Positions 25-40,300 of a stretch of 64,000 bases of DNA are shown here, piece by piece. This stretch comes from Pseudomonadota bacterium. Lineage in GTDB: Bacteria; Desulfobacterota; Desulfobulbia; Desulfobulbales; Desulfocapsaceae. Made by a program: the position numbers and the translations under genes. Each line of letters opens with the position of its first letter. Position 1 is the stretch's first letter. The DNA is taken from NCBI GenBank assembly GCA_018817385.1, contig JAHIUA010000099.1, positions 1 to 64,000 on the forward strand, written 5' to 3'. The notes under the pieces were generated by a model. It did not search any database. It had not been told where the DNA came from and saw only the letters and a program-made list of their open reading frames with translations.

Positions 25-1068
25 GTGAAAATCAGGAAGTTGCTGTCGAAACTGTCTGCATACATTCTGCATCTGTATGGCCGTTCGCGGCGGACGCCTC
101 GGAAGCCATGGACGACTGGTGAGAATTTCAGCGATACCTTTAGAAAGGATATAGAGTTGCATGCAAGAATGCTGAAACATCGGAACAATGTAGTACTCAT
201 GAGCTATGGCGGCTCAGCCGTTTTGTTCATCGTTTTTGCCGAATGGATGGCCTATTACCTAGACATGGTGATGCACCATGGATTTCTGCCTTTGCTTATT
301 CGAGGGCTGTTCTATATCGCGACTACTCTTGTTCTTTGGGCATTTCTACTGCGATCCAATCGGCTTCTAGTAGGGAAGTTGATGCGGGAAAATCTGGAAC
401 ATTATGAGTCGATACTTTTAGCATATGACAGTGCCCTGAGTCTGAAGGACAAGTATACCGGGGGACATGGACGAAGGGTCGCCTATTATGCAACCATGAT
501 AGCAAAAGCCTTAGGAATACCCCCTGGGGAAGTTGAATCCATCCGTCAAGCCGCACTGCTCCATGATATCGGTAAAATCGGTATCCCGGATAAGACATTG
601 ACCAAGCGATGGAAATTAAGCACGGACGAAATTTCAGTCAATCGGCTTCACCCGAATCTGGGTGCGGATATTGTCGAAGGTATCTCGGGTTTAAAAGAAG
701 TTGCTCCCATCATTCGTTACCACCACGAACGCTTTGACGGCAAGGGATATCCCGCCCGACTCAAGGGTGCCGACATCCCTTTCTCCGCCCGGATTACCGC
801 TGTTGCGGATGCTCTGGATACGTTTACAAGTGACAGGCCATACCGTAAATCACTGCCATTGGCCAAAACGTTTGATGAAATCAGACGATGCTCAGGTACT
901 CATTTCGACCCAGCCATAGTCACCATCGTTTCGGAGGAATCGTTTGTCCGGAAGTTAGAGGATATATGGAATCAGCAAAACGAAATCACCAACAGCAAAT
1001 TAAAATCCGACTATTTTAAAGATCAGTCCAATTCGAAAGATATAAGTTCTAAAAAAAGAGCAGGGTGA
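25..1068 (+). CDS. HD-GYP domain protein, predicted c-di-GMP phosphodiesterase
   Basis: 347 residues from a GTG start preceded by AAAGGAGAG. Two hydrophobic segments lie at about residues 55-80 and 88-108, so the protein is probably membrane-anchored with a cytoplasmic output domain. The second half is an HD-GYP domain: the metal-binding HDIGKIGIPD motif is near residue 180, and HHERFDGKGYP is near 231, where the family's HHE and GYP signatures coincide. Proteins of this family hydrolyse cyclic di-GMP. No sensor domain is visible apart from the membrane part. The C-terminal 40 residues are polar and Lys/Ser-rich. It is followed after a few bases by the ruined cytochrome b561 gene. A c-di-GMP riboswitch is predicted elsewhere in the window (39.4 kb), so the nucleotide is probably used by this cell; a direct link is inference. 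Confidence 0.9.
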   Translation: MKIRKLLSKLSAYILHLYGRSRRTPRKPWTTGENFSDTFRKDIELHARMLKHRNNVVLMSYGGSAVLFIVFAEWMAYYLDMVMHHGFLPLLIRGLFYIATTLVLWAFLLRSNRLLVGKLMRENLEHYESILLAYDSALSLKDKYTGGHGRRVAYYATMIAKALGIPPGEVESIRQAALLHDIGKIGIPDKTLTKRWKLSTDEISVNRLHPNLGADIVEGISGLKEVAPIIRYHHERFDGKGYPARLKGADIPFSARITAVADALDTFTSDRPYRKSLPLAKTFDEIRRCSGTHFDPAIVTIVSEESFVRKLEDIWNQQNEITNSKLKSDYFKDQSNSKDISSKKRAG

Positions 1069-28165: not shown

Positions 28166-28231
28166 TCTTGCAATATGTATAGTGCGTTACTATCTCAGTA
28201 AGAAATATAGTTATCGTCCTATAAGATCTAA

Positions 28232-28340
28232 CACCGGTGATGAACGGTAAGCCGGCACTCAGTACAGTACCCCATTGAGGGGTGAAAGTACCTTCACAAA
28301 ATTCTTTTCAAAAAACACGAAAATAATTTCTAAGATACTA
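28232..28340. repeat. 109-bp dispersed repeat, copy A (HU leader)
   Basis: The sequence matches 39119-39227 without gaps at 84 of 109 positions by hand count. The conserved parts are CCGGTGATGAAC..AAGCCGG (a short stem), GGCACTCAGTA, GGGGTGAAAG-ACCTT and a downstream A-rich stretch with AATTTCT. This copy ends 22 bases before the HU start, so it lies in the HU leader. Confidence 0.75.
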
Positions 28341-28362
28341 AAAAATACAACAAGGAGAATTC

Positions 28363-38923: not shown

Positions 38924-39118
38924 AGTATGACTGCCTAAGAAGGGCCAGCACATGGCTTAACGGATACTGCCAATTCTATTTCTTGTGACCTTCAGTCAAC
39001 GAGGAAAATCTTTACTCGGAGTGTGGCCCTGGTAAACGGGATCTTTGCGCCAAAGGTCAAGACTCTCACCCGGCAGTTGTCAGGGAACAACGTGGAAACC
39101 TCAGCAGGAAACAGCTGA

Positions 39119-39227
39119 CGCCGGTGATGAACAGCAAGCCGGCACTCAGTAGAAGTACAGCCCAAGGGGTGAAAGGACCTTTACCAAATTCTCTGCAAAA
39201 AAAATGAAAAGAATTTCTCAGGCACTA
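39119..39227. repeat. 109-bp dispersed repeat, copy B
   Basis: Same length as copy A at 28232 and aligned without gaps, with about 77% identity. No HU gene or remnant follows; the sequence after the repeat is unrelated. It lies about 200 bases upstream of the c-di-GMP riboswitch, in a 506-base gap after the activase-like gene that holds no other gene I can see. Confidence 0.75.
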
Positions 39228-39429
39228 AGGCCTGCAACTGCCTGCAAGCGACTGACAGGACCATGAACAGTTTCTATCTCTCTCTCCCCTCCCAACCCTT
39301 TCAGTCATATGGTCTCTCTGCTGTTCTTCCCGCCCCTCCCCCTCTTTCTGCCCCATGTACCACGTCGTGCAATTGACGCAAGATGGTTTCTTGCATACCA
39401 TAATACAAGAAGAACATTCCATTTGATTG

Positions 39430-39510
39430 GCTCAAGATAAAGCCAAACTTGCCGTGAGGCAGGGACGGAAAGCAAACGGGTCTCAATAGATAGCCGGGCT
39501 GCCTTGAAAG
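39430..39510 (+). promoter_or_regulatory. c-di-GMP-I (GEMM) riboswitch
   Basis: The aptamer landmarks are in order. TCAAG (39432-39436) pairs with CTTGA (39503-39507) as the closing stem. GCCAAACTTGCCGTGAGGCA is the P2 region with a GTGA tetraloop. GGGACGGAAAGCAAACGGG carries the conserved GACG.AAAGC core. AGCCGGGCTGCC is the 3' strand with its tetraloop-receptor side. Many GEMM elements of Geobacter-like bacteria look the same. The 3' part is shared with a terminator hairpin, so c-di-GMP is expected to control transcription of the exported protein downstream. Confidence 0.85.
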
Positions 39511-39530
39511 AGGGTAGTCCGGCTTTTTTT
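39492..39530 (+). terminator. Riboswitch expression-platform terminator
   Basis: AGCCGGGCTGCC (39492-39503) pairs with GGGTAGTCCGGCT (39512-39524), followed by seven T. The first arm is part of the riboswitch aptamer, so aptamer and terminator exclude each other. Ligand binding would prevent termination, if the geometry is as read. Confidence 0.75.
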
Positions 39531-39547
39531 ATTGAAGGAGAAATGCA

Positions 39548-40267
39548 ATGAAACGAAAGATCACTCTTACTGTAACATGTGCTTATCTCATCATCGCGTT
39601 AACGACATTGCTCACTGGCATACCAGCTTACGGCCAACAAGTTGTAACGGCTCCTTATTTCCCCCTCTATCCTGGTAGCTGGTGGAAGTATAGCAAAAAT
39701 GGAACAGAGACATATGTTGAGACAGTACTGACAGATCCAGTTGTTGTGAATTCTGTCCTTACAACGGTCATAGCGAGACCAGAAGAAATGGAATATGTCA
39801 CCAACGATTCATTCGGTATTCGCGAGCATAGAATAAAAGAGAACTCTTTTGATTACACGGTAACGTTCATACCACCGGTATTGCTCTCCCCTCCTCTGGC
39901 CACACTGGGTCAACTGACAGACAGTCAGGGGACTGCTCGTTTTGACATTCCATCAACAGGGACATTTGACATCGCCTACCGTGCCAGTACAGTACCATTG
40001 ACTTTTGAATCAATTTCTGTCCCTTACGGAACATTTGAATCGGTTAAAATCAAAACGACATTCAGGATGTTTGGCACCATTAATGGGATGACGGTTGACG
40101 AATCGTCAACCGCGTATACTTGGCTTGCCAAAAATATTGGCAGTGTAAAGAGGATCGAGTATTACGACGGGAAAGCAGATGAGGAAGTTCTGATAGACAC
40201 AAATTTACCCATGATAAAGCCCATCCTCTCTCCACTCCATTTTCTTCTACTCAAACGAGAGAGCTGA
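39548..40267 (+). CDS. Exported protein of unknown function under c-di-GMP riboswitch control
   Basis: 239 residues, with GAAGGAG 7 bases before the ATG. A clear signal peptide runs to about residue 29 (KRK, hydrophobic core LTVTCAYLIIALTTLLTG, then AYG before QQVV). The rest is beta-rich, with YFPLYPGSWWKYSKNG at the start of the mature part. That kind of PLxxGxxWxY motif is seen in exported proteins of unknown function. There is no Cys in the mature part, no lipobox and no anchor. Control by c-di-GMP suggests a role in adhesion, matrix or surface life, which is inference. A terminator follows 8 bases after the stop codon. Confidence 0.8.
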   Translation: MKRKITLTVTCAYLIIALTTLLTGIPAYGQQVVTAPYFPLYPGSWWKYSKNGTETYVETVLTDPVVVNSVLTTVIARPEEMEYVTNDSFGIREHRIKENSFDYTVTFIPPVLLSPPLATLGQLTDSQGTARFDIPSTGTFDIAYRASTVPLTFESISVPYGTFESVKIKTTFRMFGTINGMTVDESSTAYTWLAKNIGSVKRIEYYDGKADEEVLIDTNLPMIKPILSPLHFLLLKRES

Positions 40268-40274
40268 TCGGTCC

Positions 40275-40300
40275 CTTCTCTTCGGGAGAAGATTTTTTTT
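40275..40300 (+). terminator. Intrinsic terminator of the exported protein gene
   Basis: CTTCTC (40275-40280) and GAGAAG (40286-40291) with a TTCGG loop, followed by eight T. Confidence 0.85.

Follow-up and report, generated by a model that had tools for sequence, protein, structure and literature searches.

A predicted c-di-GMP-I riboswitch with an overlapping terminator precedes the gene of an exported protein in a Desulfocapsaceae genome with about twenty GEMM-I elements

INTRODUCTION

The closest described systems to the locus reported here are the GEMM-I and GEMM-Ib terminator switches of Geobacter, exemplified by pilM/Gm0970 and Gs1761. In the published accounts, these switches follow an ON logic with exclusive aptamer and terminator, occur in many copies per genome (17 GEMM-I elements in G. 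sulfurreducens) and have exported or surface targets (PMC9262584, PMC6456294). For the pilM switch in particular, PMC9262584 describes an ON switch in which the aptamer and the terminator are mutually exclusive. The element analysed here lies in a window of 64,000 nucleotides, the whole stretch of DNA under study, and resembles the Geobacter switches in all these respects, but it belongs to a set that serves mostly repeat-rich exported proteins, whereas the Geobacter targets are multihaem cytochromes and pilus genes. A further likeness is the C-G pair at the base of P2, which we take to be present in the Geobacter sequence as well. GEMM-Ib elements are marked by A at position 20, where the window RNA has G (39442); c-di-GMP rather than cGAMP is therefore the predicted ligand.

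RESULTS

A GEMM-I aptamer shares its 3' strand with an intrinsic terminator

When the 64-kb window was searched at the Rfam gathering thresholds, two matches were obtained, one tRNA and the GEMM-I aptamer at 39433-39507 of the plus strand. The aptamer was assigned to RF03167 (c-di-GMP-I-GGC) with 65.3 bits (cut-off 59, E 3.5e-13); this result hides a further match from the clan, with a lower score. At the place of the aptamer, RF01051 (c-di-GMP-I, clan CL00126) scored 55.9 bits (cut-off 35). The sequence-only reading of this DNA had proposed a GEMM-I aptamer and an Rfam covariance search to check it, and the proposal was borne out, with both models above their cut-offs. Energy folding of the aptamer alone was uninformative (z -1.2, unremarkable, and the known three-stem shape was not returned), and it is the covariance models that support the aptamer.

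In the Vc2 numbering, which we take to place G20 at 39442, A47 at 39469, C92 at 39502 and the C21-G46 pair at 39443/39468, the three contact positions of the window RNA read G, A and C. It shares these bases with Vc2 of Vibrio and the canonical c-di-GMP-I family (RF01051), together with a GNRA-type tetraloop in P2 (GUGA, 39454-39457) and long P2 and P3 stems. It differs from Vc2 in that the base of P2 is flipped, C21-G46 in place of the usual G21-C46 that we presume for Vc2, and in that the terminator overlaps the aptamer. RF03167 is the best-scoring Rfam model for the element, but 'GGC' in its name presumably denotes the bases at positions 20, 47 and 92, and its consensus GACGCGAA carries G at position 47 where the window RNA has A (39469). 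No G was found at this position in any of the 102 elements examined (22 from this genome and 80 from relatives); A occupied it in all 102, each of which had matched a pattern that requires A there. Judged by its letters, the binding pocket of the window aptamer is the canonical G, A, C, despite the top Rfam label 'GGC'.

The last 16 bases of the aptamer (39492-39507) are also the first 16 bases of an intrinsic terminator on the plus strand (39492-39530), identified by consensus scan and folding and consisting of a hairpin at 39492-39524 followed by TTTTTT at 39525-39530. The scan by itself is weak, because three such hairpins occurred in 1.5 kb against 1.3 expected. The minimum-energy fold of 39433-39531 was the terminator, with P1 and P3 broken, at -38.6 kcal/mol (z -4.4), and none of 200 shuffled sequences folded equally well. 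This 16-base overlap and the folding agree with the earlier proposal that the 3' strand of the aptamer doubles as the first arm of the terminator.

Upstream of the aptamer lies a probable promoter (plus strand, 39373-39401), with TTGACG at 39373-39378, a 17-base spacer and TACCAT at 39396-39401. The consensus scan, weak alone (2 found against 1.4 expected by chance), is joined here by a paralogous locus of the same genome (L028) that keeps a similar arrangement, TTGACT, an 18-base spacer and TATCAT about 30 bases ahead of its aptamer, and from the two together we infer the promoter. Downstream on the same strand, a putative AAGGAG-like ribosome-binding site read from the sequence (39535-39541) precedes the gene of a 239-residue protein (39548-40267). 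A terminator-like hairpin with a T-run, detected by consensus scan only, follows the gene at 40275-40291 and suggests that it is transcribed as a single-gene unit. The HD-GYP protein that had been read in the window (347 aa, 25-1068, plus strand; a context of c-di-GMP turnover) was confirmed by a PF13487 match at 433-918 (E 3.5e-38); it is without link to the switch.

The aptamer, the overlap, the gene and the regulon described below were computed directly. We consider it likely that the GEMM-I element acts on transcription as an ON switch, with c-di-GMP as the most probable ligand, and that its gene product is exported, with a likely role at the surface or in the matrix. Transcription would start about 25 bases upstream of the aptamer, which would be made first. 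As long as no ligand is bound, bases 39492-39507, which form the 3' side of P3 and P1, would pair with the bases up to 39524, and the resulting terminator would stop transcription before the gene. With ligand bound, the same strand would be held in the aptamer, the terminator would not form, the single downstream gene would be transcribed and its product would presumably be exported. The overlap, together with the paired changes in the terminator arms described below, supports a choice in which the RNA must make either aptamer or terminator. The ON direction predicted by the sequence-only reading is upheld by the overlap and the exclusive folds, from which we infer it.

The overlapping terminator recurs in related C-G elements

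The genome is dsrA-bearing and comprises 5.38 Mb in 105 contigs. RF03167 gave 22 matches in it at E <= 0.001, 10 of them above the model cut-off, and RF01051 gave 21, all above the cut-off; the element on contig C82 was weak (27 bits with RF03167). The window switch is thus one among 21-22 GEMM-I elements and is not isolated. GEMM-I elements were found in 57 of the 96 genomes searched, this one included, with counts from 0 to 24: 21 here, 21 and 12 in two genomes of the same genus (G018 and G002) and 24 in a genome of another family (G065). The 80 elements sampled from relatives comprised 45 of the 47 same-genus elements among the matches listed and 35 drawn from the better-scoring ones elsewhere. 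The pair at the base of P2 was C-G in all 22 elements of this genome and in 53 of the 80 from relatives; the remaining 27 had G-C, and none had a mismatch. Bases 20, 21, 46 and 47 were G, C, G and A in 22 of 22 elements here. Among the relatives, position 20 was G in 76 of 80 and A in four, namely L140 (same genus, C-G type), L169, L176 and L180.

An overlapping terminator was scored when a hairpin sharing at least 8 aptamer bases, with an energy of -10 or better, was followed by at least 5 T in 8 bases. This folding test was passed by 20 of the 22 elements of this genome, by 50 of the 53 C-G elements of relatives and by 3 of the 27 G-C elements (L158, L162 and L188), which look spurious. After the downstream 70 bases had been shuffled, five times for each element, the respective figures were 17 of 110, 42 of 265 and 13 of 135. 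The two exceptions in this genome were C82, weak and with no hairpin, and C75, with a separate hairpin. In the C75 element (L033:7698-7774) the 5' arm of this downstream hairpin begins AAAGCCAAA, a copy of the 5' strand of the aptamer, and the switch perhaps has a different or inverted logic.

Paired changes in the terminator arms were counted in the 75 C21 elements (22 from this genome, 53 from relatives), in 72 of which the arms could be located. Of 576 outer-pair cells, 562 were paired and 56 had changes in both partners; in 1000 column shuffles the number of such double changes never exceeded 11. The count is biased by the location of the arms through pairing and by the relatedness of the sequences. 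Arm pairs 9 and 10, which were not used for locating the arms, were standard in 70/72 and 67/72 elements.

The flipped P2 pair lets AAAGCC pair with GGCTTT of the terminator (inverted repeat I3). The claim that this pair causes or requires the overlapping terminator was dropped. Both P2 subtypes occurred together in only one (G088) of the 31 sampled genomes, and the association between C-G type and terminator is confounded because subtype follows kinship. The Geobacter switches reportedly have a terminator without AAAGCC, which counts against the P2 pair as its cause.

The switches of this genome mostly precede genes of exported proteins

A downstream ORF was available in the DNA examined for 21 of the 22 elements, the remaining one (C37:244) lying at a contig end. 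A crude signal-peptide rule, the same for both sets, was passed by 14 of these 21 first genes and by 53 of 251 other, mechanically chosen ORFs of the same loci (Fisher p 2.6e-5); with control ORFs of at least 150 aa only, 45 of 187 passed (p 1.3e-4). Three first proteins that the rule rejected, those of C44, C99 and C82, look by eye as if they had a signal peptide. Pfam names among the first genes included SBBP propeller, RHS/NHL/teneurin-like, FG-GAP (two), InlB B-repeat, DUF11, omptin, collagen with CBM5/12, GH16, MBOAT and fn3 with purple-acid-phosphatase N-terminal domains. The first proteins at C44, C99, C10, C33, C57:27553 and C82 and a 107-aa one (C37) had no Pfam match at 1e-4. These unmatched proteins, C10 among them, speak against a surface regulon, as do a Usp protein at C76, which has an antisense ORF ahead of it, and a ferredoxin/cytochrome-like pair at C37. 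By these predictions, the roughly twenty GEMM-I switches mostly serve exported or surface-type proteins, and a role of the window protein at the cell surface or in the matrix of the attached, high-c-di-GMP state is therefore likely.

Two observations concern individual members of this set. At L037:6569-7731 a GEMM-I element stands ahead of two genes, one encoding a small protein with CxxCH and the other a 4Fe-4S protein that shows only Fer4 domains in Pfam; by eye we take the two to resemble DsrJ and DsrO. Seven elements of this genome with a P2 like CTTTGAGCGATCAAAG (L023:2242, L029:1308, L030:7207, L037:8042, L038:5231, L039:586 and L041:8122), and six more in G018 and G002, have in common a block that spans roughly -100 to +120 relative to the aptamer. 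The genes behind the seven of this genome are unrelated by Pfam, and the block can be read as a regulatory cassette copied ahead of different genes.

The window protein and its paralogue

The ORF at 39548-40267 has a signal-peptide-like start by the same crude rule, in line with the 239-residue exported protein that had been proposed, its export being predicted. Its single Pfam match is to PF21347 (DUF3108_like; 7.8e-08, 32.9 bits, cut-off 27) and covers residues 153-209 only, in the C-terminal part. The paralogue at L028 is 54% identical in protein sequence, and the two loci show 76% DNA similarity over 505 positions, from before the promoter into the gene, with promoter, aptamer, terminator, similar spacing and reading frame all kept. 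Beyond these copies, weaker relatives turned up in 4 of the 257 genomes of the class that were searched (E 4e-13 to 6e-4), and a GTDB genome contig scan confirmed two loci of relatives. GEMM-I was found at one of the six loci of distant relatives that were scanned for RNA. A profile of 8 relatives reached two solved exported proteins, PDB 4fvs (9.7e-08) and 3fzx (1.1e-05), whereas the window protein by itself met 4fvs only at E 0.14. The earlier description of the protein as an orphan holds insofar as it is poorly known; with a DUF3108-like part, a paralogue and a weak distant link to solved proteins, it is not a complete orphan.

PMC4364669 describes DUF3108 proteins as beta-barrels of the outer membrane that have the YmcC fold seen in 3FZX. 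The PF21347 match above the cut-off and the reach of the 8-relative profile to both structures are likenesses by which the window protein may, through distant similarity, belong with these envelope proteins. No fold is claimed for it, because AlphaFold2 on a two-row alignment (A1) gave a pLDDT of 27.6. One locus, L109 (genome G237), hinted at the same pairing of switch and DUF3108-like protein in a second family. There, a GEMM-I element (53.9 bits) with an overlapping terminator lies directly before a 216-aa signal-peptide ORF. This ORF scored 21.5 bits with PF21347, below the cut-off of 27, and its match to the window protein was insignificant (BLASTP E 0.18, hhalign probability 0.6%); the ORF found by the A1 profile (6.4e-4) is the second one at this locus. 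The pairing was accordingly set aside as a hint only.

c-di-GMP is favoured over cGAMP as the ligand

The sequence-only reading had named c-di-GMP as the ligand. The canonical contact bases G, A and C speak for it; the ligand is nevertheless a predicted one, and a candidate cGAMP synthase is encoded elsewhere in this genome. The same ON switch might instead have 3',3'-cGAMP as its natural ligand, or respond to cGAMP together with c-di-GMP, the cGAMP being supplied by a Hypr GGDEF enzyme. We searched the genome for such enzymes and found 37 GGDEF matches, beside 17 HD_5/HD-GYP matches. The GGDEF matches gave 33 aligned rows (two C5 matches and C101:74855 were unaligned, and two C72 matches were one domain), in which the position of GacA Ser348 was Asp in 31, Ala in one (L101) and Ser in one (L096, G000:C19). 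According to PMC6456294, Ser or Thr at 348 goes with GGDE[F/Y] only and marks Hypr enzymes. L096, in which the middle residue of AGDEF is Asp, is thus a candidate cGAMP synthase whose motif departs from this rule in its first residue. Among PDB entries it matches 6d9m best, which we take from the listed name to be a GacA fusion. By their nucleobase-contact position, L096:382-2022 (Ser) and L101:1486-2550 (Ala) are both candidate Hypr-type enzymes.

The RNA itself offers points on both sides. ON switches with an overlapping terminator and a C-G base of P2 resemble Geobacter GEMM-Ib, the C21-G46 pair presumably occurs in Geobacter cGAMP switches too, and A20, the GEMM-Ib mark, is found in an element of the same genus (L140). 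Point mutations low in P2 shift selectivity, according to PMC9262584. Against this, G stands at position 20 in 22 of 22 elements of the genome. The Hypr signature pattern was present in 11 of 96 genomes, among them G032 and G038 with zero GEMM-I elements, and was found in none of the GEMM-I-rich genomes G018, G002 and G065 (21, 12 and 24 elements); its absence is not proof, because the pattern is narrow. The uniform G20 and the absence of the signature from these three genomes lead us to favour c-di-GMP and to regard a cGAMP-responsive switch as unlikely. The A20 element itself (L140:3000-3073, genome G011) is of the C-G type with an overlapping terminator and is a candidate cGAMP switch; the first ORF behind it shows, by eye, an HCxxxxxR phosphatase-like motif.

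A decayed copy, in which the aptamer fold is kept, binding is lost and the terminator sets a constant low expression, is very improbable: it would fit the extra base after P2 (AGCAAACGGG, against sequences like AGCCACGGG in other copies of this genome), shared within a 20-row alignment by the paralogue L028 only, and the repeats around these loci, which suggest frequent duplication and decay, but the contact bases are kept, the RF03167 score is second of 22 in the genome, though 14th of 21 with RF01051, and L028 at 54% protein identity retains switch, terminator, spacing and reading frame.

Repeats and other elements near the switches

A dispersed repeat of about 115 bases (ACACCGGTGATGAACGGTAAGCCGGCACTCAGTA...) with hairpins occurs in the window at 28228-28341 and 39115-39228. 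It has at least 26 matches in the genome (24 of 76 candidates scored), and 20 of the 36 genomes in which it was sought also carry it, in part split into separate modules; in the 64-kb window it had no Rfam match at the gathering threshold. The idea that the switch travels on a mobile element was rejected, this repeat and others being inconsistently placed relative to the switches. An operator-like near-palindrome, AATRGGTA-N4-TACCYATT, lies upstream of 6 of the 22 GEMM-I elements of this genome (examples at G000:C16:32072, C35:1433 and C86:24712). It had 58 strand matches in the genome with at most 3 mismatches, against 11 for a reversed control, and its other copies there showed no obvious common target.

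Contig C28 (L028:1-5407) carries the same 133 bases, from the 3' end of the paralogue, at both ends, and C64 (L026:1-900) starts with these 133 bases joined to the sequence that lies upstream of the switch in C28. These ends look as if the switch-gene unit had been duplicated in tandem and had left a remnant after a deletion, or else like an assembly effect. A MITE-like element of about 170 bases with inverted ends (CCTAGGAGTCTGTCGGA...TCCGACAGGCTCCTAGG) was found where contigs break, with copies at L026:1188-1355, L027:6012-6179, L025:11880-12048 and L034:7450-7616 and at three contig ends.

DISCUSSION

As far as its sequence can tell, the window element is a genuine and well-conserved transcriptional riboswitch, with switching predicted, and is ordinary in kind. 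Its setting is what stands out: a large GEMM-I regulon of exported proteins, and a natural series of pocket and P2 variants. A bolder reading, which we hold only tentatively and think rather doubtful, is that the C21-G46 elements with overlapping terminators make up a GEMM-I subtype of their own. It would be the G20 sister form that gave rise to cGAMP switches through a single base change, and an A20 element, L140, occurs within the same genus. Cassettes of this subtype, each with promoter, aptamer and terminator, would have been copied before unrelated, fast-changing exported proteins in a dsrA-bearing lineage, and some members may answer both c-di-GMP and cGAMP. If this were true, a single dinucleotide signal would reset a large part of the cell surface.

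The Rfam label 'GGC' need not imply a variant binding pocket. The combinations G20/C21, A20/C21, G20/G21 and A20/G21, all present within one order, provide material for working out what makes a GEMM-I RNA select c-di-GMP or cGAMP. For the organism, the analysis places a lineage-restricted exported protein under a named, predicted signal and groups it with about twenty genes predicted to be regulated together, so that the role of this protein can be framed as a testable question on the attached-cell surface.
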